From NCBI GenBank assembly GCA_029060215.1, contig JAIDUK010000006.1, positions 1 to 64,000 on the forward strand: 64,000 nt of DNA. The letters are read 5' to 3'. This stretch comes from Alistipes sp. (lineage in GTDB: Bacteria; Bacteroidota; Bacteroidia; Bacteroidales; Rikenellaceae). Positions 4,788 through 60,502 of this stretch are shown piece after piece (within the stretch, counting starts at the first letter, position 1; the number at the start of each line of letters is the position of its first letter). The notes below the pieces were generated by a model. It saw nothing but the letters and a program-made list of their open reading frames with translations, did not search any database and was not told where the DNA came from. A program made the position numbers and the translations under genes.

Positions 4788-4928
4788 CGTGTGCGGCGGC
4801 CGCGGGCTTCCGGTTCGCTGCCGGAGCAGGTCTGCCGGGTCCGCCGCACCGACCGGAACCCCTGCGAAATTCCATATCGTAAGGCGAGTGAGGGAGCGAT
4901 CCCTCATTCGTCGTATAACCCTGAGATT

Positions 4929-11073: not shown

Positions 11074-11074
11074 G

Positions 11075-12298
11075 ATGAAACGAACCCTTTTCCTCGGATT
11101 CTTCGCATTGCTGTTCGTTGCCTGCACCGGACACCGCACGCTGCTCGATTCGCCCGTGCCGCTGGCCGTGCGGATGGCCGAAAGCGAAATCGCCCGCAAC
11201 CCGTCGGCCGTTTCGCTCGACGGAATCGCTCCGGGCAAAATCAAGTGGAACTACACCACGGGCCTCGAACTGCTGGCCATGATGGATGCGGCCGATGCCT
11301 ACGACCGTTCCGATTTCTACGAGTACGCCCGGCGCTATTATGACACCATCGTACGGCCCGACGCGTCGGTGATCACCTACAAGAAAGAGAAATACAACCT
11401 CGACCATATCTGCCCCGGCCGGCCGCTCTTCATCCTTGCCGAACGCACCGGCGAGGCTCGCTATGCGCAGGTGCTCGACACGCTGTTCTGCCAACTCGAA
11501 GAACACCCGCGCAACGACGACGGCGGGTTCTGGCACAAACAGGCCTATCCGCATCAGATGTGGCTCGACGGTCTCTACATGGCCGAACCTTTCTATGCCG
11601 AATATGTCGTGCGCAAGATGGGCGAAAGCGAGCTGTTCGAGAATCTGAAATACGACATTGTCAGCCAGTTCACGCTGGTCGGAAAACACACGTATGACCC
11701 TGCTACGGGGCTCTACCGCCATGCCTGCGACGTCTCGCGCCAAATGTTCTGGTGCGACAAGGCCACCGGGCAGACGCCCCATGCGTGGGGCAGGGCGATG
11801 GGGTGGTATGCCATGGCCATCATCGAGACGCTGCAATATCTGGGCGTGGACGAAACGACGCAGCCGATGGTCGACATCCTGAACCATATCTACAAAGTGC
11901 TCCCCAAATATGCCGACCCCAAAACGGACATGTGGTATCAGGTGCTGGACCAGCCCGGCCGCGAGGGCAACTATCTCGAAGCCACGGGCTCCATTATGTT
12001 CGTCTATGCTATGCTGAAAGGCGTCCGGCTGGGCTATCTTCCCGCCGGGATGGAGGCCAAGGCCATGCGGCTGTACGAACGGTTCGTGGAGCGGTTCGTA
12101 CGCGAAAACGGGGACGGAACGATCTCCATCACGGATTGTTGCGCCGTTGCCGGATTGGGTGGCAAGGACATGCGCGACGGATCGTTCGAATACTACATTT
12201 CCGAACCGATCATCGAGAACGACTGCAAGGGCGTAGGACCCTTTATCTGGGCATCGATGGAGTACGACCTCGCCCGGGGGCGCCTGACGAAAAAATAG
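11075..12298 (+). CDS. Glycoside hydrolase family 88/105 (unsaturated rhamnogalacturonyl hydrolase-like)
   Basis: 407 aa; FWHKQAYPHQMWLDGLYMAEPF, RAMGWYAMAIIETL, YLEATGSIMFVYAMLKGVRLGYL motifs. Confidence 0.9.
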   Translation: MKRTLFLGFFALLFVACTGHRTLLDSPVPLAVRMAESEIARNPSAVSLDGIAPGKIKWNYTTGLELLAMMDAADAYDRSDFYEYARRYYDTIVRPDASVITYKKEKYNLDHICPGRPLFILAERTGEARYAQVLDTLFCQLEEHPRNDDGGFWHKQAYPHQMWLDGLYMAEPFYAEYVVRKMGESELFENLKYDIVSQFTLVGKHTYDPATGLYRHACDVSRQMFWCDKATGQTPHAWGRAMGWYAMAIIETLQYLGVDETTQPMVDILNHIYKVLPKYADPKTDMWYQVLDQPGREGNYLEATGSIMFVYAMLKGVRLGYLPAGMEAKAMRLYERFVERFVRENGDGTISITDCCAVAGLGGKDMRDGSFEYYISEPIIENDCKGVGPFIWASMEYDLARGRLTKK

Positions 12299-12323
12299 CC
12301 TTTCCCTGTTTACGGCGGATATG

Positions 12324-12356
12324 AAAAGAGCACCGGAAACTCCGGTGCTCTTTTTT
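12324..12356. terminator. Bidirectional intrinsic terminator between convergent genes
   Basis: GAAAAGAGCACCGGA-aac-TCCGGTGCTCTTTTTT. Confidence 0.85.
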
Positions 12357-12377
12357 GCGAATACGGCCCGGTCGGCC

Positions 12378-13478
12378 TTATAAAATGTACCTGATGTCCT
12401 CGGCGCTGTAAGGGGGCGGCAGACGGCGGTTGTCGACCAGCACGGTGGGGGTCCCGGCGATGCCGATGCGGTTGCAATAGGCGATCTGCGCTTCCAAATC
12501 CTTGCGAGCCAAGGGATGCACGTCGGTCTGGGGCGGAAACGTGCGGGTGGCGTACCAACCGCTGATGATCCGGTCGGTCTCGGACCACGTATCCCGGATT
12601 CCGGACGACACGATCCGAAGGGCGGCATCGTAGGAACGGTTGTCGCCCTTGTTGACGATGAATATCAGGTCGATCCGGTAATTCTGCAACGAAGAGATGG
12701 CCCGATGCACCTTTGCGCATTGCGGGCAGGCAGGGTCCATGATGACGGTCAGCGTATGGTCGGCCTCCGCGTAATTGCTGACGGGCATGGCCTCGGTGCT
12801 GTCCGGCTGCGTCTCGGGCTGCCGGGCGAGCAGATGCCAGAAGGTGTCGGGCGAATTCAACAACTGCTCATGCTTGTATTTCAACTGTTTGGCCTGACGG
12901 TCCGTTACGGCTCTGTGCGCGAGCTGATAAATGATCCATGCGCCCAATATGCCGAGCAATCCGAGTGCGACCCAATCTACGGCGGCCGGAGCATGCAGGA
13001 GCATCCATCCAACAAGCACCAAGAAAAGTCCTGCCACCCAATATTCCGTAGTCCGGTCGATAAAGGCGACGCACTGCCGCATATAGTACGCGACTCGGGC
13101 TTCTTCTCTTACCTGTTCGTCCTTCCCGACCATCAGCACGGTTCCGTCCCAGCGATTGCGGAACTCCTCGAACGAAAGGACCGAAGTCTGCCCCGAGACC
13201 GACCGAAGCAGGATTTTCTGCGTGATCTCGTCCGATTTCTCGACTAAGAAGAACGGAAACTCGCTGTCCCCTGCCACCACGATGACGGGTTTGCCGATCG
13301 TGATGAGCTGTCTGAATTGCAACCGTCGCACCCTGTTCGGCACCTGCAAATCGTCCAGCGTATCGCTCAAGGCCCGGATGCTGTGCGGCAGAGGGTGTCT
13401 GTCGTAGATGGCTCGAATCCGCAGCTCGCTGATCCGGATGCCGACACGATACAACAAAAGGTAAAGCAGGTAGGACAT
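12378..13478 (-). CDS. Membrane protein: N-terminal C39-peptidase-like domain, two TM helices, C-terminal thioredoxin-like domain (CPQC)
   Basis: HPLPHSIRALSDTLDDLQVPNRVRR...KSDEITQKILLRSVSG...SFEEFRNRWDGTVLMV resembles a non-catalytic C39-like domain; DPACPQCAKVHRAISSL thioredoxin motif and cis-Pro GTPTVLVD. Start taken at MSYLLYLLL. Confidence 0.65.
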   Translation of the reverse strand: MSYLLYLLLYRVGIRISELRIRAIYDRHPLPHSIRALSDTLDDLQVPNRVRRLQFRQLITIGKPVIVVAGDSEFPFFLVEKSDEITQKILLRSVSGQTSVLSFEEFRNRWDGTVLMVGKDEQVREEARVAYYMRQCVAFIDRTTEYWVAGLFLVLVGWMLLHAPAAVDWVALGLLGILGAWIIYQLAHRAVTDRQAKQLKYKHEQLLNSPDTFWHLLARQPETQPDSTEAMPVSNYAEADHTLTVIMDPACPQCAKVHRAISSLQNYRIDLIFIVNKGDNRSYDAALRIVSSGIRDTWSETDRIISGWYATRTFPPQTDVHPLARKDLEAQIAYCNRIGIAGTPTVLVDNRRLPPPYSAEDIRYIL

Positions 13479-16166: not shown

Positions 16167-19100
16167 TCAGTCAAATACGTATTTGATGCTGAAGAAACGC
16201 AATCCGTTGCCCGAAGGATAAACGTAAATCGTCGTCTCTTCGGAGATGTCTATGGTGAATTCGCAGGTCGTAGTCGTGCTCGATGCAACACCGCCGAATT
16301 TCGTTTGCTCTACTCCGTTAACGGTTACTGCTACAAAACGGGCTGTATCTTCGGAACCGCCGGTATTCGATGCTACGACATAAAGTTTGCCGGGAGCCGA
16401 TGCCTTGAAGTAGCACGAGCGGTCTTTGTTGGCAGCGCCTTTACCGCCCCATTGGATGAAGCGCATCGTTTCCCCGTTGATAGTTGCCGTACCGTATTTG
16501 GTTTTGCCTCCGTTCAGAATCGTAAGCCCGTCCCAGATCAAATCGGGAATTGTTGCGGTAACGCTTCCTTCTGTACCTAATTTATTGGCGATTGCATCGA
16601 AGCTGCTTGCATTGCAATCCCACAGCAGAGGTTCTTTGACGCTGGCATTGGGATCCTTGATCCTGAATTTGGCTTCCCCGGCTTCGGATTGGAGATACTT
16701 GGTCGAAGTCGCGGTCGGTTTGGCTATTACCGAAATCGTGTATTCGCCGATGGCCAGCGCAGCGACCGTTTCTGCGGCGATTACAAATTCGGAATCGGTA
16801 ACTTCGGTGGTCGTGCCGTTGAACGTTACTGCATAGGTCGCTGCATGGGCATTGTGTTCCCAAGTAGCGGTTATGGCTGTCGACGAGCCTTGTTCGATGC
16901 TGGTTGCATCGATGGTCAGTTCGGGCGTTGCCAATTGTTGGGTTACCACTTCGGGCGTGGTGTCCTTGGTCCAAGCGATTCGAGTGAACGTGATGTTGGG
17001 CACGCTGGGCAGCACATAGATGTCGTTGGCACCGACGAGGTCGCCGAGTACAATCTTGTGCGGTTTGCCGTCGGCGTTGATCGAGTAGGCGTCGCCGCCT
17101 GCGATGATCTGAACCGTCGACGTGATGCCCGTACCTTGTGCCGTCACTTCGATGGAGCCGTAGCCCTCGGCGTTGAACGCCAGCGCGCTGGTCAGAGGCA
17201 CGCCCTTGGTGCTGACGGTGGCGGCCGCACCGAAGGTGATACCCTCGGACATGACTACCTCGGCAGGAGCATAGATACGGATGTTCTCGATGATCTGATT
17301 GCTCTCGATGGTTTCGGTGTCGAACTTGGTCTTGTCGGTGAAATTCCACGTCGTGGCTTCCGTAACGGTTTCCAGTTCGGTCGGACGAACGATGACCGGA
17401 GCCGAGGCGTTCCACCAGCGGGGGTCACCTACCTTGTTGGCTGTGATGGCTCCGTTTTTCAGATACATCTTGCCTGCGATCGAGTTGGTGCAGGGGTCGT
17501 CGTCGAGAATCATGCCGCCTTCTTCCAGTGCCAGTTCCTGCGAGAGGGTTTTGCCTGCAAGATTGACGGACGGTTGATTGAAGAAGAAGTTTTTCCCGTC
17601 TTTGTCAGTGGTGCCGACATTGTAGAAATAGTTGCCTACGCAGGTCGGAGCGATGCTCGTCGTTTTGTTGCTGGTCAGTTTTACCCACTGCTGACCATTT
17701 TGAGAAGCTACCTCGTTGGGGTTGTTCTCATTGAGGAACAGGCATTTCGTCAGTTTGACGGCCGAAGGTTCGAATTTCTGCAATTCGAAGATGCCCGAGT
17801 TGTTGGATGCCGAGTTGGTTGCCGTAACTTGGTTGAAAGTACAATTTTCGACGTTGACGCTGCCGATGCTTCCGCCTTCGCGGCAACGGATGAATGTACG
17901 AGCGCAGGCATAGAACGTGGAGTTCTTGATGTCTATCGTGCCGTATTGGGAACCGGCTTTGATGCGGAGGTCGATGAAGTCGCCGCCGCCGGCACCTACC
18001 GGATTGATGTCGTGAGCGTAAATTTCATCGTAAATCAGGTTATCGACATTGAATGTGTCCGCGCCGCTCCAGATACCTTTGGTGAAGCCGGTGATCTCGC
18101 AGTTGATGAATTCGGCATCGGTCAGCGAGCCGCCCGTGGTAACGAACACGCCGCACTGGTTGCCGCCGTCGATCAAAACGTCTTCGAAGTGGAGTTTGCC
18201 GCTCTTAGGTTTGATAGCGAGCTTGATGGCCGGTTTCGCACCTTCGGCGGTCGATTCGCCGTAGATCTCGAGACCGTAAGCGAACTCGAACGGATCGTAG
18301 ATGTTTTCTTTCTCATTGAGCGTCATCAGGGGCGAGAGGTCGTAGAGCTCGCCGTTGTTGTATTCGAGCAGAAGTTCCAGATCCCCCGTAGCGCTGCTGA
18401 TGGCATTGACGAGTTCTCCGCTGTTTTTGATCACTTGAGTACCCTCGGTGCTGGGGCGCGTGTAGGCTGTCAGAATGCCGCGCGAACCCGATTTGCCGAA
18501 CAGCAGCGTGAACTTGTAGTTGGTGCCGGGTTCGAGTGCGTCGATCTTGGCCTCGCAGTCTTCGATCTGCTCCTTGCTCAGAGCCAAGGTCGTAGCCGTG
18601 ACCCCCTCGACCGGAACTACCAGTTCATAGCGGACCGAAGTCAGATCTTCCTTGTCGTCGGCATTGTCCCACGAAAGGGTGACCGACGTCGAGGTGCGCT
18701 CCTTGGCCTGCGGGTTGAGTGCCTTGCGCACGGCCGAAGTCGAAACGGCTTCGGCAAGACATGCCCAGTTGGAGCTTTCGATCTTGGCGTTGACACCCTG
18801 CACACGAGCCCAGAACGTCTTGTCTACAGCCAAATCCTTGACCGTGTAGGGCACGGCATCCTTGGCTACCTCGATGGTTTTGTAGGCATTGGCCGAATCG
18901 AAGTATTCGGGCATTTCGTACACTTCGACTTCGTTGCCCTTGTCATCGGTGGTGATGGTGGGCACAGCTTCGAAAAGTTCGAGCAGGTAGGCGTCGGCGT
19001 TGGAGACGGCGCTCCACGAGAATTTGATGTCCGTGCCGACCGCGGCGTCGACATCCGCCTCGAAGTTCAGCGGTGTCAGCACGCGGGTATACGGAATCTC

Positions 19101-19193
19101 GTCCATGGCATCTTCGACATCCGAGCAGGATGCGGCGAACGCACCTGCGCAGAGCAAGAGCCCGAATTTCAGATTTCTGAATATCTTTTTCAT
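16167..19193 (-). CDS. DUF5123/DUF4957-like lipoprotein (Fn3 plus right-handed beta-helix), putative surface glycan-binding protein
   Basis: Lipobox AASCSD, Fn3-like repeats, beta-helix region; position directly downstream of SusD. Confidence 0.7.
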   Translation of the reverse strand: MKKIFRNLKFGLLLCAGAFAASCSDVEDAMDEIPYTRVLTPLNFEADVDAAVGTDIKFSWSAVSNADAYLLELFEAVPTITTDDKGNEVEVYEMPEYFDSANAYKTIEVAKDAVPYTVKDLAVDKTFWARVQGVNAKIESSNWACLAEAVSTSAVRKALNPQAKERTSTSVTLSWDNADDKEDLTSVRYELVVPVEGVTATTLALSKEQIEDCEAKIDALEPGTNYKFTLLFGKSGSRGILTAYTRPSTEGTQVIKNSGELVNAISSATGDLELLLEYNNGELYDLSPLMTLNEKENIYDPFEFAYGLEIYGESTAEGAKPAIKLAIKPKSGKLHFEDVLIDGGNQCGVFVTTGGSLTDAEFINCEITGFTKGIWSGADTFNVDNLIYDEIYAHDINPVGAGGGDFIDLRIKAGSQYGTIDIKNSTFYACARTFIRCREGGSIGSVNVENCTFNQVTATNSASNNSGIFELQKFEPSAVKLTKCLFLNENNPNEVASQNGQQWVKLTSNKTTSIAPTCVGNYFYNVGTTDKDGKNFFFNQPSVNLAGKTLSQELALEEGGMILDDDPCTNSIAGKMYLKNGAITANKVGDPRWWNASAPVIVRPTELETVTEATTWNFTDKTKFDTETIESNQIIENIRIYAPAEVVMSEGITFGAAATVSTKGVPLTSALAFNAEGYGSIEVTAQGTGITSTVQIIAGGDAYSINADGKPHKIVLGDLVGANDIYVLPSVPNITFTRIAWTKDTTPEVVTQQLATPELTIDATSIEQGSSTAITATWEHNAHAATYAVTFNGTTTEVTDSEFVIAAETVAALAIGEYTISVIAKPTATSTKYLQSEAGEAKFRIKDPNASVKEPLLWDCNASSFDAIANKLGTEGSVTATIPDLIWDGLTILNGGKTKYGTATINGETMRFIQWGGKGAANKDRSCYFKASAPGKLYVVASNTGGSEDTARFVAVTVNGVEQTKFGGVASSTTTTCEFTIDISEETTIYVYPSGNGLRFFSIKYVFD

Positions 19194-19213
19194 AATTGTA
19201 CTGTATTAACCGA

Positions 19214-21247
19214 TTATAAGTTCGCGTAACCGAAGTCGTTGACCAGCGAACCCTGTGCGTTGCTCAGGTTGTGCCGGAACAAAGGCCATGTCGAACGCGG
19301 ATAGGGGTCGTTGAAGTCGTTGTTGTAGAAATACATCCAGCGGTAGCTCTTCTCGTCCTTGTAAGTCTCTTCCGTGGCTTTTCCGGACGGTACTTGGTGG
19401 AAAATACCCTGCGAAAGGAAGTCGAGACGGTTCCAGCCGCCGTTGTCGGCCTCGCTGTTGTAGCCTGCGGGCGTCTTGCCGATTTCGTCTTTCTCCAGAC
19501 CGAAGATTTCGATGCCCTGACCTTTCTGACGCCAGAATGCGTAGTAGGTGTCGAACGTAGCGATGACCACGTTCTTGGAGTTCTTGAAATCCTTGGGCTC
19601 GGTGAGCTTGGCGTAGTCGGCGTAGTTGCCGCGCATGCAGGCCAGATCCTTCATGTCGTCGCGGGCTTGATTGAGTTTCTTGGTGAGCAGGCCCCAGCGG
19701 ATCAGGTCCTGTTTGCGGAGGAACTCGCCTGCGAACTCCAAGGCGCGTTCGTCGATGATGGCCTTCATGATGGTGCCTTCGGTTTCGAAATCGTCGATGG
19801 CGGCATCGTCGCTGTTGACGGCCGTACCGGCGGTCAGCGCATCGACATAGGCGTCGACCATCCCTTCGTTACCCTTGTAGGCACGTTTGCGGACTTCCTT
19901 GAGACAAATCTTGGCGTAGTCCAGATCGCCGGTCCAAGCTGCGATTTCGGCAGCCATCAGGTAGACGTCAGCATAGCGCATGACAATGGGCTTGCAGCCG
20001 TCGCCCGTACCGCCGGGATAGTCGATCATCCACTCGTAGCGATACTTGCCCCAATAGAAGCTGGATGCGTTGCGCATCTCCCAGCCGCCTTTGGTGCCGT
20101 CTTCGTTCTCGACATCTTGGTTCCAGCGCATAGGCACGCAGGTGATGTCGCGACGAACGTCCTGCTTCTCGTACTTCCACCACAGCGTGGGGTTGGGGCC
20201 CGTTGCGCCGCCCTTGGACGATTTGTCCTTGATGAAGGGCGAGTTGGCGGTGTGAGGATAGGCGTGGGCGTAGTTCCAGCGGCCGCGGGCGTTGCCGAAC
20301 GGCTGTACGAACATCACTTCGCGCGAAGCGGTGACATGCGAGAAATCGTTGAACTTATGCCAAAGCGATTCGAAGCTGGGGTCGAGCGAGAGCGAACCGC
20401 TGTCGATGACTTCCTTGAGGTAGGCCAGCGCCTTGGGATAGAGTTCGGCTTTGGACATGGTTTCGCGGGTCGAGAGACGCAGCGAACCGGGGTCGCCGGT
20501 GCCGGTCTTGCCGTCGGCGGGGCGCCATGCGTAACCGGCGGCGTTCAGCGCGATGCGGGCATAGAGACCCATGGCGAAAGCCTTGTTCATACGGTCGGTG
20601 CGCATGGTCTGCGTAGCCTCGTAGGGCCAGTAGAGCAGCGGAATGGCCGTGTCCAGATCGGCGAGCATGGCGGCATAGACATCGTCGCGCTCGGCCTTGG
20701 GATCGTAGAGGGTGGCGGAAGTCAGCGGCTCGAGGTGCAGAGGCACGTCGCCCCACATCTTGATGAGCTCGTAGTAGTAGAGCGCACGGTAGGTGAGCGC
20801 TTCGCCGAGCAGATAAGCCATGTCGCGGTTGTTGGTCGTATTGCCGTAGGCACGCAGGTTCTGGATGGCGAGGTTGGCACGCTCGATACCGATCATGATT
20901 TCGTTGTAGCCGTTGTTGGACGTATCCAACGAACCGTTGTCGGGTTTCGTGTTGTACTCGGACAAGGTGTATTCGTCGACCTTGGCGTCCGAAGCCTGAG
21001 ATCCCATCTTGAGTTCGATGTCGGTATTGTAACCGTACATGTGGTTCAGACGGGCGTTGTAGGAATTGGTATGGGCGAAGATCTCGCCGATGCCGATCAC
21101 CGCGAATTCAGCGGTCTGGTACTGCGAGAATACCTTCTTTCCGTCGAACGACGATTGATTTTCGACTTCCAGCGCATCGTTCAGACACGAGGTCAGAAGA
21201 CCTCCCATCAGCAGAAGCGCGGAAATGCTATATAATGTCTTTTTCAT
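19214..21247 (-). CDS. RagB/SusD family nutrient-uptake outer-membrane lipoprotein
   Basis: Lipobox LTSCLN; ALTYRALYYYELIKMWGDVPL, YADVYLMAAEIA, ERALEFAGEFLRKQDLIRWG motifs. Confidence 0.95.
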   Translation of the reverse strand: MKKTLYSISALLLMGGLLTSCLNDALEVENQSSFDGKKVFSQYQTAEFAVIGIGEIFAHTNSYNARLNHMYGYNTDIELKMGSQASDAKVDEYTLSEYNTKPDNGSLDTSNNGYNEIMIGIERANLAIQNLRAYGNTTNNRDMAYLLGEALTYRALYYYELIKMWGDVPLHLEPLTSATLYDPKAERDDVYAAMLADLDTAIPLLYWPYEATQTMRTDRMNKAFAMGLYARIALNAAGYAWRPADGKTGTGDPGSLRLSTRETMSKAELYPKALAYLKEVIDSGSLSLDPSFESLWHKFNDFSHVTASREVMFVQPFGNARGRWNYAHAYPHTANSPFIKDKSSKGGATGPNPTLWWKYEKQDVRRDITCVPMRWNQDVENEDGTKGGWEMRNASSFYWGKYRYEWMIDYPGGTGDGCKPIVMRYADVYLMAAEIAAWTGDLDYAKICLKEVRKRAYKGNEGMVDAYVDALTAGTAVNSDDAAIDDFETEGTIMKAIIDERALEFAGEFLRKQDLIRWGLLTKKLNQARDDMKDLACMRGNYADYAKLTEPKDFKNSKNVVIATFDTYYAFWRQKGQGIEIFGLEKDEIGKTPAGYNSEADNGGWNRLDFLSQGIFHQVPSGKATEETYKDEKSYRWMYFYNNDFNDPYPRSTWPLFRHNLSNAQGSLVNDFGYANL

Positions 21248-49444: not shown

Positions 49445-49480
49445 GGCACCGGTCCGTTTCCGCGGATCGGTGCTTTTTTT
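49445..49480 (+). terminator. Intrinsic terminator of DUF4199-GT2-DUF4293 operon
   Basis: GCACCGGTCCG-tttccg-CGGATCGGTGC followed by a run of T. Confidence 0.8.
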
Positions 49481-49697: not shown

Positions 49698-52115
49698 ATG
49701 GTTATGAAAAATTTCAATTTCTGGCGTTCGCTGTTTTTCGCAGCGTTGGCAGTTGTCGGGTTCGCCGCTTGTTCGGACGACGACGACAACAACGGCAATG
49801 GGAACGGGGATTCCTTGACTGTCAATGGCAAGCCGTCCGTCACTATCGGCGTGAATGGCGAGGCTGGCGAGACCGAGGCCGTCGAGGTTGTTTCGCCCGG
49901 TCAGTGGACCCTTGCTTTCGAGGAGGAGCAGGATTGGTGCGTGCCCAGCGTTACGGCCGGCAAGGGCGGTACTTCGGCGCTCAAGTTTACGGTCGAGGCT
50001 TTGCCCGAGGGTGTCGAGGAGCGTTCCGCTACGGCCGTTCTTTCGTCTCAGATCGAAATTCTCGGCGGGTTGTATCCGGTCACTGCCAAGGTCACCGTGC
50101 GTCAGTCGCCTTCCGGGTCGGCTACTCCCGATACCAACGTTGCTGCCGTCCGTGCGTTGCTTGTGGCTATGAATCCCACTTCGACTAAAGTCGATGTTAC
50201 CGAGGAAATCGCTGCCATGACCCTCACGGGTATCGTCGTTTCCAATTCGGAGGGTAAGAATACCGGCAGCACTTGGAATGTTTCTGTGCAGGACGGTATC
50301 GTTGCCAAGAATTCCGGTCTGACTATTTCCAACTCGAAATTCGCCGCAGGCACTTATACTCCCGGTATGTGCGTGACGGTTGCATTGACCGGTGCACAGG
50401 TTCAGTCCTACAACGGCTTGCTCCAGCTCAACATCGCCGATGCAGCTGCCGAGGCCATTACGAATGTGGCTACCGATGCTCCGGAACCTGTAGTTATTTC
50501 TTCCGAGGAGTTGTTCGATTACGAGTCCATGCTCGTGCAGATCGACAATTGTTATCCGACTGCCGGTTACGGCGCAGGTTGGAACACAACCACCAACAAG
50601 GGCAATGTCAATTTCGCTACTGCCGATGGGTTGTCGTTCGTTTGCCGCACGGGTTCTTCGGCGGTTTTCAAGGATCAGACTATCCCTGAGAAGATGGGTT
50701 CGTTGATCGGTATCGCAGGGCGTTACAATAACGACAAGCAGGTTTCGCCCCGTACTATCGACGACATCAAGCTCACCGAGGCCATTCCCGAGCCTGAGTA
50801 TACCAAGGCTACCATCGCTGAGCTGAAAGCCGGTAACTACGAGGTGGAAGCTACGCTTCTCGCTGTTTATCAGAAAGGTTTGTTGTTGGGCGATGAGACC
50901 GGCTATACGCTCGTCTTTTTCAACGACTGGAACACGCAGACGTCCAATCCCTATCAGAACGATGTAAACAAGAAGATTACCGTCAAGGGCGCTGTGTCCG
51001 AATACAATGGTCTGCTTCAGTTCTCGGCTCCCAAGACTGAAAATATCACTATCGGTGCCGCCAATCCGGATTACAAGTTGCCGGAGCCTATTGTTTTCGA
51101 TGCTGCCGGGTTGACCGCTTACGAGAGCGACAAGAAGTATGAGTACGTTTCGCTTACGGGGACCTTGGTTGTTACGCAGGGAACCAGCGGCGCCAATACT
51201 TATAATTCCTATACGGTTATCGTTCCCGGTTATACTGCCAAGACCGTCACGATGGCTTACGGTTTGGATTCTTACTATACGGGGCTCGTTACGGGCGACG
51301 TGGTCGATGTCAAGGGCTTTGCGCTCGGTTTCGATACTTCCAAAGTCAATATCATGGTTCGTGAGGTCGCTAAAAACACCACTACCCCCGCTTTGACTTT
51401 CACTTCGACTGTCAAGCCTTTTGCAGGCAGTAACCCCGAGGCTCAGACGCTCAATTTCGAGGCCCGTAACATTTCGGCTCTGGCGCTTGAAATGTTCTCG
51501 TTCACGGGTGCTGACGCCGATAAGTTCAATGTCGATTCTCAGAGCGATGATTCCGTGACCATCAGTGCAAAAGGTGATAATGATAGCGGTGTTACTTACT
51601 CGGCTACGCTCGTCGTTACGCTTGATGGTACGGTGTTGGACGAGATAGATGTAAAACAAACGAGTAAACCGGCGGCAGGAACAGGAACGTCTTATGTTTG
51701 GACTTTGGCAAAAGGAGATCTGACAACGAGTGGTGGCAATGTTGCTGGTAAGGGCACTCCTGCATTGACTTGGACTTCGACTGCAGCTACCTATATCGGA
51801 TTCGATACTGCGAGCAGTGCAAGAGGTGTACAAATTGGTTCTGCTAAGAATCCGACAAGCTCCTTTACACTTTCTACAGAGGGTTATACAGAAAAGATTG
51901 CAGCAATTGCAGTAAATGCCGCGACCACAGGAACGGCTACATTGACCGTTAAAGTGGGAGGGGTGCAAATCGGTGAGAAAGCGAATTTGACAACTGTTGC
52001 GACGCTTTATAAATTTGAAAGCGCTTCTCTTGTTGAGGGAAAGGTTGAAATTATTTTGGAAGCTACCGAAAAAGCGATGTATTTATCATCGGTAAGCATT
52101 AATCCAACTGAGTAA
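49698..52115 (+). CDS. Surface lipoprotein with BACON-like and two DUF5689-like (OB-fold-like) modules
   Basis: Lipobox GFAACSD, acidic linker DDDDNNGNGNGD; two repeats with AELKAGNYEVEATLLAVYQKGLLLGDETGYTLVFF...VSEYNGLLQFS pattern; Ig-like C-terminus. Confidence 0.7.
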   Translation: MVMKNFNFWRSLFFAALAVVGFAACSDDDDNNGNGNGDSLTVNGKPSVTIGVNGEAGETEAVEVVSPGQWTLAFEEEQDWCVPSVTAGKGGTSALKFTVEALPEGVEERSATAVLSSQIEILGGLYPVTAKVTVRQSPSGSATPDTNVAAVRALLVAMNPTSTKVDVTEEIAAMTLTGIVVSNSEGKNTGSTWNVSVQDGIVAKNSGLTISNSKFAAGTYTPGMCVTVALTGAQVQSYNGLLQLNIADAAAEAITNVATDAPEPVVISSEELFDYESMLVQIDNCYPTAGYGAGWNTTTNKGNVNFATADGLSFVCRTGSSAVFKDQTIPEKMGSLIGIAGRYNNDKQVSPRTIDDIKLTEAIPEPEYTKATIAELKAGNYEVEATLLAVYQKGLLLGDETGYTLVFFNDWNTQTSNPYQNDVNKKITVKGAVSEYNGLLQFSAPKTENITIGAANPDYKLPEPIVFDAAGLTAYESDKKYEYVSLTGTLVVTQGTSGANTYNSYTVIVPGYTAKTVTMAYGLDSYYTGLVTGDVVDVKGFALGFDTSKVNIMVREVAKNTTTPALTFTSTVKPFAGSNPEAQTLNFEARNISALALEMFSFTGADADKFNVDSQSDDSVTISAKGDNDSGVTYSATLVVTLDGTVLDEIDVKQTSKPAAGTGTSYVWTLAKGDLTTSGGNVAGKGTPALTWTSTAATYIGFDTASSARGVQIGSAKNPTSSFTLSTEGYTEKIAAIAVNAATTGTATLTVKVGGVQIGEKANLTTVATLYKFESASLVEGKVEIILEATEKAMYLSSVSINPTE

Positions 52116-52130
52116 GAACTTTATTATCCA

Positions 52131-52167
52131 AACTCTTGACGGGAGTAACATCTCGTCAAGAGTTTGT
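52131..52167 (+). terminator. Intrinsic terminator/attenuator between lipoprotein and nuclease genes
   Basis: AACTCTTGACG...CGTCAAGAGTT then TTGTTTTC. Confidence 0.7.
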
Positions 52168-52276
52168 TTTCTCGTAGCTTTTCTTGTCTCGACATAGCTC
52201 AGATTGTCTGACTTTGCGCTTGACTTACGAAAAGTTTCGGTTTCTTTGAAACTCTTTTCTATTTTTTGTTTTTCGG

Positions 52277-53479
52277 ATGTCTCTTTTCAAGAATTTCCAT
52301 TTGCCTGCATGGGTATTTGCAGGTATCCTTTTTCTTTTCGCGGGATGCGGCGACAGCGACAGCGGACCTTCGGTTTCCGTGCGGCTCGACGCAGAGACCG
52401 TGAATTGCAATGCTACAACGAACCGGATCATCGCTACCGGCGAGGCCATGACTTTCCTCGCCACCATTCTCTCGCAGGGCGACGGCGATGCTTGGTGTTC
52501 GTTTTCTTCGTTCGATACGTCGGCCGAGCCTCAGTTGTCCAAGGAGGGGCATGTCAGCATCCCGATGAAACTCTACCTCTTGCGGAATCAGACCGACGAA
52601 GCCCGCGAGGCTCTTATCCGTGTCGTTTTTGCCAACGGTTTTAGTGCCGACCTCGTTTTGCGGCAGGGTGCTTTTTCGCCCCATCCCGACTACGACCGGC
52701 AGTGGGGCGAGCAGCCTTTCTTCCGCGAGGACGATGCTTATATATATAAGACTTATTATACAACACTCACCCGCGGCGGTTACGTCCGCAATTATTCCGT
52801 TTGTTTCGATACCGGGAAGCGTGTGTCGCATTGGGTGGCTTATCCGTTGACTATCAATTATGTGACGCCTAATCTCGGGCGGCCTAATCCCGAGCCGTGG
52901 GCCTACGATCCGAATAAGTATTTGCCTGCTATTCCGGAATCGGCGCAAGCCTATATTCTCCAAGGTTATGGTTCCGGCGCTGTGCGCGGCCACCAACTCC
53001 CGTCGGCCGATCGGTACAGTACTAAGGAGACCAATGCCATGACTTATTATGCGGTCAACATCATGCCCCAGAACTACGATTTCAATGGCGGTGTTTGGTT
53101 GGAGCTGGAGAATAAGGTTCGCGATAACATGACTCGCAATCCGTCCGATACGATCTTTGTTGTCACCGGGACTTATTTCGGCACCGGCAAGACCCTCACC
53201 GACCGCACGGGCAAGACCGTATCCGTTCCTTCCAATTGTTGGAAGGTCTTGTTGCGCGGTTCCAGCGGCAAGGCTGTCTGGGATTGTTCTGCCGACGAGC
53301 TCCACGGCATCGGTTTCTGGTTCGCCAACGATGCGTCCAACACGGCGTCGTTGCGCAGCTACGCCACCACCATCGCCGATATCGAGCAGAGAACCGGCTT
53401 CACATTTTTCCGCAACCTTCCCGCCGATGCGGCCGATGCCGTCAAGGCGCAGAATTCTCCTTCCGATTGGAACCTTTGA
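52277..53479 (+). CDS. DNA/RNA non-specific endonuclease lipoprotein (NUC/beta-beta-alpha-Me family)
   Basis: Lipobox LFAGCG; SGAVRGHQLPSADR matches (D)RGH catalytic motif; NIMPQNYDFNGGVWLELENKVR. Confidence 0.88.
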   Translation: MSLFKNFHLPAWVFAGILFLFAGCGDSDSGPSVSVRLDAETVNCNATTNRIIATGEAMTFLATILSQGDGDAWCSFSSFDTSAEPQLSKEGHVSIPMKLYLLRNQTDEAREALIRVVFANGFSADLVLRQGAFSPHPDYDRQWGEQPFFREDDAYIYKTYYTTLTRGGYVRNYSVCFDTGKRVSHWVAYPLTINYVTPNLGRPNPEPWAYDPNKYLPAIPESAQAYILQGYGSGAVRGHQLPSADRYSTKETNAMTYYAVNIMPQNYDFNGGVWLELENKVRDNMTRNPSDTIFVVTGTYFGTGKTLTDRTGKTVSVPSNCWKVLLRGSSGKAVWDCSADELHGIGFWFANDASNTASLRSYATTIADIEQRTGFTFFRNLPADAADAVKAQNSPSDWNL

Positions 53480-53511
53480 CCGAACGTCTGAATCTAAAAT
53501 CATAAACCGCC

Positions 53512-54546
53512 ATGAAGAAAATCCTTTTCACAGGTCTGTTCGTCGTCTTGTTCGCGGCGGGCATCGCGCAGAAGCCGTATAAGATCGTCTTCTACAACTT
53601 CGAGAACCTCTTCGACACCATCCGCGATCCCGACATCTACGACGAGGAGTTCACTCCCGAAGGGGCTAAAAACTGGAATTCGGCCAAGTACAGCAAGAAG
53701 ATCGGCAATCTCGGGCGCGTGTTGTTCGACATTGCCGCCGCCGACCGCGATTTCCCCATCGTCATCGGCGTTTCCGAGATCGAGAACCGCAACGTCATGG
53801 AGGACGTCATCGCACAGCCCAAGCTCTTGCCCGCCAATTACCGCATCGTCCACTTCGATTCGCCCGATGCCCGCGGCGTCGACGTCGGTTTTTATTACCG
53901 GCCCGACCGGTTCAAGTTGGAGGGCAGCGCTCCCATTCCGTTCCGCATGCCTGAGTTGCCCAATTTCCGTACGCGCGATTTCGTCACCATGTGGGGCACC
54001 ATCGACGGCGAGCCTTTCTTCTTCCTCGTCTCCCACTGGCCTTCGCGTCTGGGCGGTAAGGAGGCTTCCGATCCCAAGCGTCTGTCCGCAGCCCGGCAGG
54101 TCCGTGCCATCGTCGATTCCGTTCAGCAGGCCAATCCCGCTACCAAGGTCGTCGTCATGGGCGACATGAACGACGACGCTACCGACGCCAGCATCGTCGA
54201 GGGGCTCAGCGCCAAGGGCCGGATCAAGGATTTGCAGCCCGGCGACATGTTCAATCCTTATATCGCTTTGCTCAAGGCCGGTTACGGAACGTTGGCTTAC
54301 CGCGATGCGTGGAACCTCTTCGACAACATCATCGTCTCAGAGAACCTCGTCGACGCGCCCGCCGGGACTTTGCGTCTGCTCTCCGTCGGCTCTTCGTCCA
54401 AGTTCTACGGCGGGATTTTCCAGCGGCCCTATATGCTTCAGCGCGAGGGGCAGTACAAGGGTTATCCCCTGCGTACGTTCGTCGGCAACAATTTCCAAGG
54501 CGGTTTCAGCGACCACTTCCCCGTCTACATCTTCATCGGTAAATAA
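53512..54546 (+). CDS. Endonuclease/exonuclease/phosphatase (EEP) family protein, secreted
   Basis: Signal peptide; FYNFENLFDT, VIGVSEIENRNV, VVVMGDMNDDATD, FSDHFPVYI motifs. Confidence 0.93.
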   Translation: MKKILFTGLFVVLFAAGIAQKPYKIVFYNFENLFDTIRDPDIYDEEFTPEGAKNWNSAKYSKKIGNLGRVLFDIAAADRDFPIVIGVSEIENRNVMEDVIAQPKLLPANYRIVHFDSPDARGVDVGFYYRPDRFKLEGSAPIPFRMPELPNFRTRDFVTMWGTIDGEPFFFLVSHWPSRLGGKEASDPKRLSAARQVRAIVDSVQQANPATKVVVMGDMNDDATDASIVEGLSAKGRIKDLQPGDMFNPYIALLKAGYGTLAYRDAWNLFDNIIVSENLVDAPAGTLRLLSVGSSSKFYGGIFQRPYMLQREGQYKGYPLRTFVGNNFQGGFSDHFPVYIFIGK

Positions 54547-54566
54547 ACAGTGCAAACAATAACCTT

Positions 54567-57443
54567 ATGAAACTGAAATCTTTACTCTTCCTTTTCCTCG
54601 CTTCGGCCGTTTGCTCCGTCGCTTATGCGCAGGAGGGCGGCATCCGGGGCAAGGTCGTTTCGCGCGGCAGCCGCGAGGCGTTGGGCAACGTCAAGGTGAC
54701 GCTCGAATCCACCGGGCTCTCCGCCGTTACCGACCGCGACGGCAATTTCCTCTTCGAGAATCTGCCGCAGGGCGATTATCGCGTTGCTTTCGAGGCGCCC
54801 GATTTCGAGGACCTCGAGTTGCGCGTGCGCGTCGGGCAGAACATGCGCGACTTGGCTTCCGTCGTCGTCTCGCCTTTGATGACTTCCGCCGGGTTCGACG
54901 ATTCGGTTTTCGCCGAGTTCGACAGCGATTCGTCGGGTTCCGACGAGCAGGCGTTGCCTTCGTCGCTTTCGTCGTCCAAGGACCTTTATAACAGCGTCGC
55001 GTCGTATCGTTTCTCCGAGATGCGTTTCAACGTCCGGGGTTACGATTCGCAGTATTCGGATATTTACCTCAATGGCATCCGGTTCAACGACGCCATGACC
55101 GGTTACGGTCCGTGGTCGTTGTGGAGCGGTCTCAACGACGCTACCCGCAACCAGAATACCGTCGCCGGGCTCGGTTCTTCCGATTTCGGCATCGGGGGTA
55201 TCGCCGGTATGACCAACGTCAACGCCCGTGCTTCGCAGATGCGCAAGGGTTTGCGCGTCAGCGTCTCCAACGGCAACCAGATGTACCGGTTCCGCGCCAT
55301 GGTTTCCTACGCTTCCGGGCAGTTGGACAACGGTTGGTCCTATGGTATCTCCGTCGGTACGCGTCAGGGCGGCAACGGTTACGTCGACGGGGTTTATTAC
55401 AATTCCTACTCCTACTTCCTCTCCGCCGAGAAGCTCTTCCGCGACAACCATCGGTTGGCGCTCACCGTCTTCGCGTCGCCTTCCGAGCGCGGTGCCCAGC
55501 AGGCTTCCACCGACGAGGCTTACCAGCTCTTCGGCAGTAATTTCTACAATCCCAACGTCGGTTATCAGGACGGCAAGTTGCGCAATTCCCGCGTGCGCAA
55601 TACCCACGAGCCCGTCGTCATGCTCAATTATACGTGGGATGCTTCCGACAAAACCCGTTTGAACGCCGCCACGGCTCTGCGTTTCGGCAAGAACGGTTAT
55701 TCTGCCCTCACTTGGAAAGACGCCAGCGATCCCCGCGGCGATTACTACCGTTATCTGCCTTCGTCGCTCCTCAGCCAGATCGTGCCGGGCGTCACTTCCG
55801 AAGAGACCATCTACGAGTATAACTACCGTGCTCAGCAGTTGGCTCAGAATTTCACCGGCATGTTGCAGTACGACCGTTTCTTCCGCGAGAACCGTTTCAT
55901 CGACAATACGCTCGTCGACCAGTTCGCTTCCAGCAAGGATGAGCAGTTCAAGCAGACCATCGGTTCGCAGTACCGTTCCAACATCATCCTCGAGGAGCGT
56001 CATACCGACCAGCTCGATTACAACCTCGCTCTCGACGTCTCGCACCAGATCCGCAACAACATGCAGATTACCGCCGGCGCCAACCTCCGCGTCAACCGCA
56101 CGTGGTATTACGACGAGGTCAAGGACCTGCTCGGCGGCGATTATTGGTACGACATCGACAAGTTCGCCGAGCGCGACATGTCGCACAGCGCCATCAATTA
56201 CCAGAACGATCTGGATTATTATTACCAGACCGGCCACGCCCGCATCGCCCGCGTCGGCGACAAGATCAGTTACAACTATCGCGCGCATTTGCTCGAAACT
56301 TCCGCTTGGGCTCTCTACAACTATGCGATCGGCGGTTTCGCCATGAACGTCGGCGGCAAGATCGGTTATTCGTCCATGCACCGCGAGGGTCTTTGGCGCA
56401 AGGGGCTCTTCCCCGATAATTCGCAGGGCGATTCCAAGTCGCTCGATTACCTGATCTACAGCGCCAAGCTCAACTTGTCCTACCGTTTCTCCGGCGCCCA
56501 TTCGCTCGAGGCAGGTGTCGTTTATATGCAGAACGCGCCCAAGTTCGTCAATGCGTTCGTCTCGCCCCGCACCCGCAACACCACTACGCCCGGCATCTCC
56601 GCCGAGCAGATTTTCGGCGTCGACCTCACTTACAACCTCAATCTGCCTTATGTCAAGGGCCGCGTCTCGGGGTATTACACCACCATGACCAACCAGACCA
56701 AGGTCATTTCGTTCTACGACGACGTCGAGCGTTCGTTCACCAACTTCGCCATGAGCGGCATCGACAAGCGTTACTACGGCGTCGAGGCTGCCGTCTCCGT
56801 GCCCATCTGGAACGGTATTTCGGCCGTCGGCGCCGTCAGCTGGGGCGATTATACCTATACGTCCAATCCCGACTTCATCCAGACCATCGACAACAGCGAG
56901 GTCATCGCCCGCGGCGACAAGGTCAATTGGAAGGGCATGCACGTCGAGAGTTCGCCGCAGTTGGCTTTCAACATCGGTCTCGATTATCGCGGTCCGCGCA
57001 ATTGGTTCGCTTCGATCAACTTCAACTACTACGACAACCTCTACCTCTCGATGAACCCGCTTTACCGGACCAAGCAGGCGTCGCAGTATTATTCCAACAT
57101 CATCACCGACGAGATACAGAAGGGCAGCGGCATGGACATCGCCAAGATCAAGGAGGCCGCTCAGGGTATCGAGCGGATGCGCGCTCAGGAGAAGTTCGGC
57201 GGGTTCTATACCCTCAGCGCCAGCCTCGGCAAGAATTGGTACATCCACCGTAAGTACATGTTGGGTTTCAGCCTCGAGGTCAAGAACATCCTCAACGATC
57301 AGGACATCCGCACCGGCGGTTACGAGCAGATGCGTCTGCGCCGCGTCCGTACTCCCGAGGGCGTCAAGTTCTCCCGTTTCGATTCCAAGTATTTCTACAT
57401 GCTCGGGACCAATTATTATCTCAACCTCTATTTCCGTTTCTAA
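54567..57443 (+). CDS. TonB-dependent receptor with CarboxypepD-reg-like domain
   Basis: Signal peptide, GGIRGKVVSRGSREALGNVKVTLESTGLSAVTDRDGNFLFENLPQGDYRVAFEAP, plug and barrel, C-terminal YYLNLYFRF. Confidence 0.92.
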   Translation: MKLKSLLFLFLASAVCSVAYAQEGGIRGKVVSRGSREALGNVKVTLESTGLSAVTDRDGNFLFENLPQGDYRVAFEAPDFEDLELRVRVGQNMRDLASVVVSPLMTSAGFDDSVFAEFDSDSSGSDEQALPSSLSSSKDLYNSVASYRFSEMRFNVRGYDSQYSDIYLNGIRFNDAMTGYGPWSLWSGLNDATRNQNTVAGLGSSDFGIGGIAGMTNVNARASQMRKGLRVSVSNGNQMYRFRAMVSYASGQLDNGWSYGISVGTRQGGNGYVDGVYYNSYSYFLSAEKLFRDNHRLALTVFASPSERGAQQASTDEAYQLFGSNFYNPNVGYQDGKLRNSRVRNTHEPVVMLNYTWDASDKTRLNAATALRFGKNGYSALTWKDASDPRGDYYRYLPSSLLSQIVPGVTSEETIYEYNYRAQQLAQNFTGMLQYDRFFRENRFIDNTLVDQFASSKDEQFKQTIGSQYRSNIILEERHTDQLDYNLALDVSHQIRNNMQITAGANLRVNRTWYYDEVKDLLGGDYWYDIDKFAERDMSHSAINYQNDLDYYYQTGHARIARVGDKISYNYRAHLLETSAWALYNYAIGGFAMNVGGKIGYSSMHREGLWRKGLFPDNSQGDSKSLDYLIYSAKLNLSYRFSGAHSLEAGVVYMQNAPKFVNAFVSPRTRNTTTPGISAEQIFGVDLTYNLNLPYVKGRVSGYYTTMTNQTKVISFYDDVERSFTNFAMSGIDKRYYGVEAAVSVPIWNGISAVGAVSWGDYTYTSNPDFIQTIDNSEVIARGDKVNWKGMHVESSPQLAFNIGLDYRGPRNWFASINFNYYDNLYLSMNPLYRTKQASQYYSNIITDEIQKGSGMDIAKIKEAAQGIERMRAQEKFGGFYTLSASLGKNWYIHRKYMLGFSLEVKNILNDQDIRTGGYEQMRLRRVRTPEGVKFSRFDSKYFYMLGTNYYLNLYFRF

Positions 57444-57465
57444 CCTCGTTTAGCGATTGTGCATT

Positions 57466-58755
57466 ATGAAAAATTATAGATTGTTTCTGGTTGCGGCGCT
57501 CGGCATTCTGTTGGCCGGGTGTTACAACGATTTCGATACGCCCGCTCCCGCCAAGGTCTGGACCGACGAGGATTTGGCCCAGCAGGGGTTGACGCCCATG
57601 ACTATCAAGGAAATGAAGGCTGTCTTCATCTCCGAGTTCGGGTCGTTGGAGAATACAGGGTCCAACAACAGTTGGTCCGATACCAAGACCGTCAAGTTCG
57701 GTGCTCCGTCGACATTCGTCGAGAAAGAGTTCCCCAATATCAATTTCCGCGAGGACATCGCCGACCGTTATATCAAGGGCAAGGTCATTTCCAGCGATGC
57801 GCAGGGCAACGTCTACAAGTCGCTTTACATCGACGACGGTACGGCCGCCATCGAGCTCAAGCTCTGCGGTACGTTGTACACTACTTTCAAGCTCAACCTC
57901 GCTACGATGGAAAGTACGTGGGTCTACGTCAAGCTCAAGGATTTCTACCTCGGCAACTACCGTATGATGCTTTCGTTGGGCGACGCTCCGTCCAACGCGC
58001 TCAATACGGGTTTGCGCAATAAGTACTACGCCAATTCCAACTTCGAGAGCGTCGATCTGTGGGCCAATCTCAGCAATCCCGCTTTCAACCGCGTGCTCGT
58101 GGGCGGTCCCTGCCGGTTGGACGAGACCAATATCAAGGTCGTCAATTCTTCCAATTATGCTCAGTTGGGGCAGGACGATTACGGGCGTCTGATTCGTTTC
58201 GAGGGTGTCAAGATCCGTTATGCCAACGTCACTTATCAGGACGAGGAGCGCGACGACGAGGGTAATATCAAGCGCGACGACGAGGGTAATATCATTTGGG
58301 GGCCCGACATCACCGCTCCCGCGTTCGGTACCAACGGCGATCCGTTCCCCAATTGGATCGTCACCGATTCGGGTTCGCCCGTGTTCAGCGCGTGGTATCA
58401 TTGGGCTTACACCCGTAATAATGTCAGCCTTTACGGTTCCGTGCTCATGACGTTGAACGACAGCGCCACCGGATCGGCTTCTCCCGGGGCTTATTCCATC
58501 CGTACCAGCGGTTATGCGCGTTTCTCCATGCGTCCCGTGCCACGCAACGGGACCGTCGGCAACGTGTTGGGTATCTACAGCATCTATTCCACTCGGTTGA
58601 ACGATTACGCTCAGTACCAGATCACCGTCAGCCGGATGGAAGACCTCGATTTCCCCAAGGAGTCGTTGCTCTCGCAGGAGTGGATCGACCACAATACGCC
58701 TGCTTCTTCTTATAATCCGCCCGTCAAGGACGGCGCCGGCGAGTACGACGATTAG
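57466..58755 (+). CDS. DUF5689 domain-containing lipoprotein
   Basis: Lipobox LLAGCYN; IADRYIKGKVISSDAQGNVYKSLYIDDGTAAIELKL OB-fold-like DUF5689 pattern. Confidence 0.85.
   Translation: MKNYRLFLVAALGILLAGCYNDFDTPAPAKVWTDEDLAQQGLTPMTIKEMKAVFISEFGSLENTGSNNSWSDTKTVKFGAPSTFVEKEFPNINFREDIADRYIKGKVISSDAQGNVYKSLYIDDGTAAIELKLCGTLYTTFKLNLATMESTWVYVKLKDFYLGNYRMMLSLGDAPSNALNTGLRNKYYANSNFESVDLWANLSNPAFNRVLVGGPCRLDETNIKVVNSSNYAQLGQDDYGRLIRFEGVKIRYANVTYQDEERDDEGNIKRDDEGNIIWGPDITAPAFGTNGDPFPNWIVTDSGSPVFSAWYHWAYTRNNVSLYGSVLMTLNDSATGSASPGAYSIRTSGYARFSMRPVPRNGTVGNVLGIYSIYSTRLNDYAQYQITVSRMEDLDFPKESLLSQEWIDHNTPASSYNPPVKDGAGEYDD
58248..58295 (+). repeat. In-frame 24-bp tandem duplication inside DUF5689 gene
   Basis: GCGCGACGACGAGGGTAATATCA(A/T) twice in tandem, encoding RDDEGNIK/RDDEGNII. 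Confidence 0.85.
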
Positions 58756-58804: not shown

Positions 58805-58833
58805 AAGAGGTGCCCCTCGGGCACCTCTTTTTT
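58805..58833 (+). terminator. Intrinsic terminator of nuclease/TonB/DUF5689 operon
   Basis: AAGAGGTGCC-cctcg-GGCACCTCTTTTTT. Confidence 0.85.
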
Positions 58834-59082: not shown

Positions 59083-59285
59083 GCAGCCTTGTTCAGGGTT
59101 GCCGACATTCGGACATAAAGCGCATCGGCTTTACTTTCTTACTGATGAAACTTGGCGGTTTTTGAAGGTGTAGGAGTAGCAAGGTTGGTGCTCGCGTCGT
59201 TTTTCGGCGTGGGCATTCGTATCGTTCTCTACACCGGGTACGCCAAGACCTCATCAGTGGTTCGTGCGAAGTGCTCGCGCTTTTT
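59083..59285 (+). ncRNA. Unannotated structured small RNA, rod-like (6S-like / Bacteroidales-1-like is speculative)
   Basis: Nested helices ACTGATGA/TCATCAGT, CTTGGCG/CGCCAAG, GGTGTAG/CTACACC and apical 11-bp hairpin TGCTCGCGTCG-ttttt-CGGCGTGGGCA; followed by terminator GTGCGA-agtgc-TCGCGC-TTTTT; 5' end inferred from TACCTTTG. Confidence 0.7.
59264..59285 (+). terminator. Intrinsic terminator of the structured small RNA
   Basis: GTGCGA/TCGCGC stem followed by TTTTT. Confidence 0.65.
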
Positions 59286-59320
59286 GTTGTCCGGGAAACG
59301 ATGAACCTGATCCGAATTCT

Positions 59321-60502
59321 ATGAAGTTTTCCGTTTGTTTGCTGGCCCTCGCTTGTTTGTGGGCGCCCGGCCGTTCCCTCGCCGCGCAGCGCGACAGTCT
59401 CGGCCACGGCCGGTTGGCCATCGCCGCGGTTCCGTTGGTTTTGGGCGGTGCCGCCATGACTTTTTGCGACCGCGATTTCCGCGAGTTGCGCAATAGTTAC
59501 GCCGTCGGGTTCCGTCACGACTACGACGATTATCTCCAGTACGCTCCCTTGGCTTTGACTTGGGGATTGAAGGCTTGCGGCGTTAAGAGCCGCAGTTCTT
59601 GGGGGCGGATGATCGTTTCCAACGCGTTTTCCGCCGCCGTGATGGCCGCTTCGGTCAATTCGCTCAAATATTCCGTGCGGGTCGAGCGGCCCGACGGTTC
59701 CACCCGCAATTCCTTTCCGTCGGGCCATGCCGCCACAGCTTTCATGGCGGCCGCCATCCTTCATAAGGAGTACGGCCATCGCAGTCCGTGGTTCAGCGTC
59801 GGGGGTTATGCGGCCGCCGCCGCTACCGGCATCACCCGTCAGCTCAACAACCGCCATTGGATGAGCGACATCTTGGTCGGTGCCGGCATCGGTATTCTTT
59901 CCGTCGAGTTGGGCTATTTCTTCGCCGATTTGATTTACCGCGACCGGGGGCTCTCGGTTCTCGACATGCCCGCCGAGTTCGATAGGTTGCGGCGGCCGTC
60001 GTTTTTGTCGTTGCACGTCGGGGCCGCCGCTGCTTTGGGCAGTTATTCGGTGTTGTCCGGCCATGAGGTCCGTTTCGCCGCCGGTCCGGTGGCCGGGATC
60101 CGGGGTGCTTGGTTCGCTACGCCTTACGTCGGGGTCGGCGGGCGTCTCGGGGTCGGCAGCATGCGGTTGGCCATCGATGCCGCGACACAGGACGAGGCGC
60201 AGTACAGTGCTTCGGTCTCTGCCGGGCCTTGTTTTTCCTATCCCCTCACGGATCGTTGCGCTGTCGGGTCGCATTTGTCCGGCGGGTACGAGTATTTCAA
60301 GCGGATGCGCAGTTCGGTCGGCGACTTGGGCGATCGCGGCGGTGCGTCGATCGGCACCGGACTTTCCGTCACTTGCCTTGTCTCCACCGGTTTCGGCGTC
60401 CGCTTCGCGGTCGATTACGACATCGTCTCGCCCGTGTTGCGCGGGTCGGCCGAGTGGTTGCATAAGTTGACCGTCGGCATGGAAGTCTGCACGCTTTTCT
60501 GA
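59321..60502 (+). CDS. PAP2 family phosphatase with C-terminal barrel-like domain
   Basis: Signal peptide; KYSVRVERPDGSTRNSFPSGHAATAFMAA and LNNRHWMSDILVGAGIG (PAP2 motifs); C-terminal about 180 aa of amphipathic beta strands ending in TVGMEVCTLF. Confidence 0.85.
   Translation: MKFSVCLLALACLWAPGRSLAAQRDSLGHGRLAIAAVPLVLGGAAMTFCDRDFRELRNSYAVGFRHDYDDYLQYAPLALTWGLKACGVKSRSSWGRMIVSNAFSAAVMAASVNSLKYSVRVERPDGSTRNSFPSGHAATAFMAAAILHKEYGHRSPWFSVGGYAAAAATGITRQLNNRHWMSDILVGAGIGILSVELGYFFADLIYRDRGLSVLDMPAEFDRLRRPSFLSLHVGAAAALGSYSVLSGHEVRFAAGPVAGIRGAWFATPYVGVGGRLGVGSMRLAIDAATQDEAQYSASVSAGPCFSYPLTDRCAVGSHLSGGYEYFKRMRSSVGDLGDRGGASIGTGLSVTCLVSTGFGVRFAVDYDIVSPVLRGSAEWLHKLTVGMEVCTLF

Follow-up and report, generated by a model that had tools for sequence, protein, structure and literature searches.

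How DNA passes the outer membrane of Bacteroidota is an open question, and a gene cluster from Alistipes sp. (Bacteroidales; Rikenellaceae) raises it in a specific form: what does a receptor-type barrel take up when it lies beside nucleases and has no SusD partner? The cluster occupies positions 49,698 to 58,755 of the window, by which we mean the whole stretch of DNA analysed (64,000 nucleotides; positions 1 to 64,000 of the forward strand of contig JAIDUK010000006.1, assembly GCA_029060215.1). A sequence-only reading had listed five co-directional genes, encoding two DUF5689 lipoproteins, a DNA/RNA non-specific endonuclease lipoprotein, an EEP nuclease and a TonB-dependent receptor, and had proposed that their products bind, cut, trim and import extracellular nucleic acids. 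All five + strand open reading frames were confirmed at their coordinates, as were their Pfam families. We conclude that three of them form a conserved core that is probably an outer-membrane DNA-import module for natural transformation in Bacteroidota, a role that orthology suggests for this organism. The core genes are:

53512..54546, + strand: EEP nuclease (PF19580), assigned to the core by Pfam, active-site motifs, signal peptide and adjacency
54567..57443, + strand: predicted outer-membrane barrel of TonB-dependent-receptor fold, 958 aa, with a CarboxypepD_reg N-terminal domain (Pfam, model, orthology)
57466..58755, + strand: putative OB-fold DUF5689 lipoprotein, 429 aa, lipobox Cys19 (Pfam, model, position)

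The functional anchor is a genetic study of the duck pathogen Riemerella anatipestifer (Huang et al. 2021, PMC8459023), in which markerless deletion of RA0C_RS04915 (an outer-membrane protein with a CarboxypepD_reg domain) or RA0C_RS04920 (DUF5689 plus DUF5017) abolished natural transformation: no transformants were obtained, at a detection limit of about 4e-10 and a wild-type frequency of 5e-5. ComEC, DprA, RecA, ComF, an HHH protein and a DUF1343 protein were likewise essential, while other envelope genes in the screen altered transformation frequency with partial loss. The study reported RS04915 homologs in Flavobacteriaceae only, left the EEP gene out of its transformation tests, and described the conversion of double-stranded to single-stranded DNA as unknown (PMC8459023).

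One locus in our collection (L126; genome G414, at ~1.016 Mb) carries ComEC, two further genes, an EEP gene, a barrel gene and a gene for DUF5689 with a weak DUF5017 match. We infer that it is the R. anatipestifer RS04895-RS04920 locus, because its gene order and spacing equal those of tags RS04895, RS04910, RS04915 and RS04920 (ComEC, EEP, barrel and DUF5689+DUF5017), and because its barrel is 66% identical to that of Chryseobacterium and 41% to that of Empedobacter, in agreement with the published 65.9% and 42.5% (PMC8459023). Reciprocal best-hit searches pair the window barrel with that of L126 (27% identity over the full length), and on sequence grounds the window barrel is assigned as an ortholog of RA0C_RS04915; in a tree of these barrels a clade of flavobacterial paralogs falls separately, and a second barrel of the Alistipes genome, on contig C38, forms a long branch of uncertain placement. 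The two EEP proteins share 38% identity over their full length, and the window DUF5689 lipoprotein is the positional counterpart of RA0C_RS04920, related to it by family and position.

The survey that the sequence-only reading had called for, of linkage between receptor, DUF5689 and EEP genes, revealed a conserved arrangement. A strong barrel match was present in 53 of 119 Bacteroidales genomes, spread over different genera. Across 159 gene neighbourhoods, drawn from Bacteroidales, a sample of the phylum, the Riemerella family and named GTDB genomes (some genomes being in more than one set), the first or second gene downstream of the barrel encoded a DUF5689 protein in 154. The proposal of a DUF5689 lipoprotein in the SusD position is supported. 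The EEP gene was the immediate upstream neighbour, usually divergent, in 118 of the 154 loci with upstream sequence, a count lowered by truncated contigs and simple gene calling. Since genomes mostly carry only one to three PF19580 copies, chance adjacency would be well below 1%, and the EEP-barrel linkage, present in roughly three quarters of loci, is far above chance. The core as defined by these gene neighbourhoods, EEP-barrel-DUF5689, was found in Bacteroidales, in Flavobacteriales and in metagenome-assembled genomes of Chitinophagaceae, Saprospiraceae and others.

Could these proteins form a gate for DNA? Pfam assigned only CarboxypepD_reg-type domains to the barrel and detected no Plug, and comparison of its sequence with solved structures returned nothing close except for the small N-terminal CarboxypepD_reg domain. 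Its AlphaFold2 model (pLDDT 87.9, from a 61-row alignment) had PqqU, Fiu, YncD and FecA as best PDB folds (probability 1.00, E down to 4e-33), with matches to FecA, YncD and PqqU along the whole length, including the N-terminal plug; the model thus predicts a complete TonB-dependent receptor, plug included. As regards a TonB box, many homologs show an xITL-like stretch ahead of the plug; in the window barrel such a stretch is unclear. Membership of the block in the SusCD class was ruled out, as neither a SusD lipoprotein nor a match to a SusC-family model was present.

The partner lipoprotein matched DUF5689 (PF18942) only. Its model (pLDDT 75) had as best PDB fold an RPA subunit with ssDNA (E 3e-4, probability 0.69, low TM), the only match below 1e-3, followed mainly by MCM OB proteins; the OB-fold character anticipated from sequence is therefore supported by the model, and it implies no specific ligand. 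DUF5689 partners, whose lengths span about 236 to 875 aa across the wider family, commonly read V-K-(D/K/E)-(D/E)-F-D after the lipid cysteine, resembling the C-x-K-(D/E)2 surface-export signal defined in Capnocytophaga (PMC5080379); the window protein reads C-Y-N-D-F-D, a weaker match.

The third core member matched Exo_endo_phos_3 (PF19580) with an E-value of 3.5e-113. The metal-site and histidine motifs ExEN, GDxN and SDHxP are kept in the window copy and in 127-131 of 131 homologs. The sequence-only reading had called this protein secreted. The family and a Sec-type signal were confirmed, and release was not: because the signal peptide comes without a lipobox, as is normal among homologs (a lipobox occurs in 9 of 132), the enzyme is probably periplasmic. 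Membership in the ExeM/NucH group was ruled out (NF033681, 20.4 bits against a cut-off of 300), and a PHROGs scan gave no phage link apart from one weak EEP match.

Other parts of a transformation pathway are encoded elsewhere in the genome, with ComEC and DprA on contig C30 and, on C32, an N-terminally anchored, ComEA-like multi-HHH protein that can be aligned to the Riemerella HHH protein. The Alistipes ComEC (L232:1994-3466, 490 aa) ends directly after the Competence domain, and Pfam detected no lactamase-type nuclease domain in it, in the L126 ComEC (3905-5713, 602 aa), or in those of three further Bacteroidales (L233, L234, L235). In many ComECs, according to PMC8579336, that domain provides nuclease activity. 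As the ComECs examined have no detectable domain of this kind, a separate nuclease is plausible, and the conserved EEP protein may be the natural candidate.

These elements suggest a route in which DNA capture by DUF5689, its lid-on-barrel geometry and the EEP step are parts that we infer. The DUF5689 lipoprotein would sit on the cell surface atop the barrel as receptor and lid, capturing DNA; the barrel would serve as the gate into the periplasm; and periplasmic EEP would process the incoming duplex, either producing a transportable strand or clearing the surplus. The inner-membrane-anchored multi-HHH protein would then hold the DNA, and ComEC would carry one strand inward to be handled by DprA and RecA. 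The broader proposal, that a receptor-type gate of this sort operates across the phylum, with DUF5689 replacing pilus/secretin capture and EEP replacing the ComEC nuclease domain, is a tentative one, to which we stop just short of giving even weight.

Several observations weigh against a transformation role. Pairwise BLAST shows only weak similarity between the window DUF5689 lipoprotein and its RS04920 counterpart, and Pfam finds no DUF5017/choice-of-anchor J C-terminus in the window protein, although partners across the wider family vary in size and do not all share that domain. The acidity of DUF5689 lipoproteins (median pI 4.8) is unusual for a DNA binder, and OB folds bind other ligands too. 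No DUF1343 gene was found in the Alistipes genome. Among the 53 barrel-bearing Bacteroidales genomes, ComEC was undetectable in four (one of them 99% complete) and an HHH match was absent in five. Co-occurrence with com genes does not discriminate, because ComEC, DprA and HHH are near universal in the order; a phylogenetic-profile test with these three and DUF1343, all near universal there, was uninformative. Finally, PMC7965970 reports conditions that allowed transformation of R. columbina but not of F. johnsoniae.

How the remaining genes relate to the core bears directly on the alternatives. They and the putative transcription boundaries are:

49445..49474, + strand: terminator-like stem-loop with T-run (13 pairs, 8 GC, T8), which would close the preceding unit
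49698..52115, + strand: accessory BACON/DUF5689 lipoprotein, 805 aa (Pfam, lipobox, profile comparison)
52129..52166, + strand: terminator-like stem-loop (16 pairs) at the predicted boundary between the first lipoprotein gene and the operon
52277..53479, + strand: PF01223 nuclease-family lipoprotein with VRGH for DRGH (Pfam, motif alignment)
58805..58829, + strand: terminator-like stem-loop (11 pairs) at the predicted operon end

The five genes had been read as one block. They are co-directional; however, a single transcription unit is not supported, because of the terminator-like stems, which are the longest found and all intergenic in a scan whose total of stem-loop matches was not above that in shuffled sequence. 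The block is best interpreted as a solitary lipoprotein gene (49698-52115) followed by a four-gene operon (52277-58755) with internal gaps of ~20-32 nt.

The first lipoprotein matched DUF5689 (PF18942) and, weakly, BACON, with a C-terminal region that falls in no class; after its lipobox it reads CSDDDD, identical to the surface-export signal of B. fragilis (PMC5080379). Two DUF5689 modules had been claimed for it. Profile comparison by hhalign supports one, at about residues 145-359 (98%), and rules out a second in the next 212 residues (0.9%). The adjacent lipoprotein belongs to Endonuclease_NS (PF01223, E 4.9e-38), as predicted, but its catalytic DRGH motif is replaced by VRGH (residues 236-239; window 52982-52993, first codon GTG). 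Because all seven related PF01223 copies beside the module keep DRGH intact, activity of the window protein is doubtful and its loss possible. Nor does this nuclease belong to the conserved linkage: of 39 Bacteroidales loci, only 6 have a PF01223 gene close to the core, in some cases together with a BACON/DUF5689/LTD lipoprotein gene. By this distribution both the PF01223 protein and the first DUF5689 lipoprotein are lineage-specific accessories outside the core, additions that might capture or fragment DNA at the surface. In the Riemerella family, one genome (G424; L140 and L141) carries the module twice; in one copy, a gene for a PF01223 nuclease of 530 aa lies upstream and the EEP gene downstream.

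The main rival to a transformation role is nutrient scavenging, in which surface nucleases would cut DNA or RNA, the barrel with its DUF5689 lid would import oligonucleotides, and periplasmic EEP would convert them to nucleotides as a source of phosphate, nitrogen or nucleosides. The recurrence of PF01223 and BACON/DUF5689/LTD lipoproteins beside the core in several Bacteroidales fits this explanation, and the barrel-bearing genomes without detectable ComEC leave room for such a role in some lineages. Against it, the phenotype in the only genetic data for orthologs is a loss of transformation (PMC8459023), the operon encodes no nucleoside transporter, nucleotidase or kinase detectable by Pfam, the window nuclease lacks the DRGH aspartate, and most loci keep the core without a PF01223 gene. 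We consider scavenging unlikely. The uptake theme of the sequence-only reading, which had also suggested a test for a role in natural transformation, is supported, given the essential orthologs in R. anatipestifer (PMC8459023); its nutritional emphasis is not supported in the form given, because the PF01223 protein and first lipoprotein are accessory, the former is without its DRGH aspartate, and EEP is probably periplasmic.

Import of some other ligand, such as a nucleotide, peptide or glycan, with the Riemerella phenotype arising indirectly from a changed envelope, is less probable again. TonB-dependent receptors are generic, and further envelope genes did shift transformation frequency in the Riemerella screen, but loss was complete for the two adjacent genes and partial for the envelope genes (PMC8459023), and the barrel is linked throughout the phylum to a nuclease and an OB-fold protein. 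Least credible is a cluster for degrading matrix or neutrophil traps with an unrelated barrel, for although nuclease activity secreted by one oral member of the Bacteroidales acts on the DNA of biofilms and neutrophil traps (PMC12568770), in most lineages, of which many are environmental, no surface nuclease accompanies the EEP-barrel-DUF5689 linkage.

If the core is a DNA-import module, how does it compare with known systems? In Streptococcus pneumoniae, EndA is a PF01223-related nuclease found beside DNA-uptake machinery. The window PF01223 protein shares the family of such EndA/NucA-type nucleases and differs in being a lipoprotein, in lying outside the conserved core and in its VRGH motif. 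With the R. anatipestifer pair the window shares the orthologous CarboxypepD_reg barrel, the DUF5689 lipoprotein directly downstream and EEP (the RS04910 match) directly upstream. EEP is co-directional in the window, whereas it is divergent in Riemerella; the window further has a PF01223 lipoprotein gene within its operon and, next to that operon, another DUF5689 lipoprotein gene, its partner and genome lack DUF5017 and DUF1343, respectively, and it represents Bacteroidales rather than Flavobacteriales. SusCD nutrient importers have the same receptor fold, CarboxypepD_reg N-terminal domain and downstream surface lipoprotein, but the window lacks SusD and any SusC-family match, and its partner is the OB-fold DUF5689 protein. 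ExeM/NucH nucleases (NF033681) likewise have an EEP fold, with OB/LTD modules in some neighbours, whereas the window EEP is a separate, probably periplasmic protein. The BtuB-BtuG vitamin B12 complexes of Bacteroides (PMC10404256) likewise join a non-SusD surface lipoprotein to a TonB-dependent receptor, and differ in substrate and lipoprotein family.

A literature search, with preprints outside its scope, found no later papers on the RS04915/RS04920 pair. Relative to the published literature, the phylum-wide EEP-barrel-DUF5689 unit and EEP as a predicted working part appear to be new; an earlier description in a preprint is possible. The module is extended here from Flavobacteriaceae to Bacteroidales and other lineages, with a concrete candidate nuclease partner and structural models consistent with DNA binding. 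If the proposed function is correct, many environmental and animal-associated Bacteroidota would possess a receptor-type DNA gate, which would matter for gene flow within their communities and for the genetic tools applicable to Bacteroidota.

Further barrels were noted in the course of the survey. The second receptor-like barrel of the Alistipes genome (L036; G000:C38:21679-41678) is very divergent and lies at 10477-12951 on the + strand; a tandem DUF5689 protein is encoded ~5 kb away on the opposite strand (17980-19998). In six Flavobacteriales loci (L106, L107, L108, L109, L110 and L111), a paralogous barrel gene lies no more than ~15 kb from the DNA-uptake-type one, and in several of them it has conserved neighbouring genes for proteins of ~540 and ~145 aa. 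Downstream of the window operon, beyond the terminator-like stem, positions 59264-60502 encode a phosphatase of the PAP2 family that has a long C-terminal extension.

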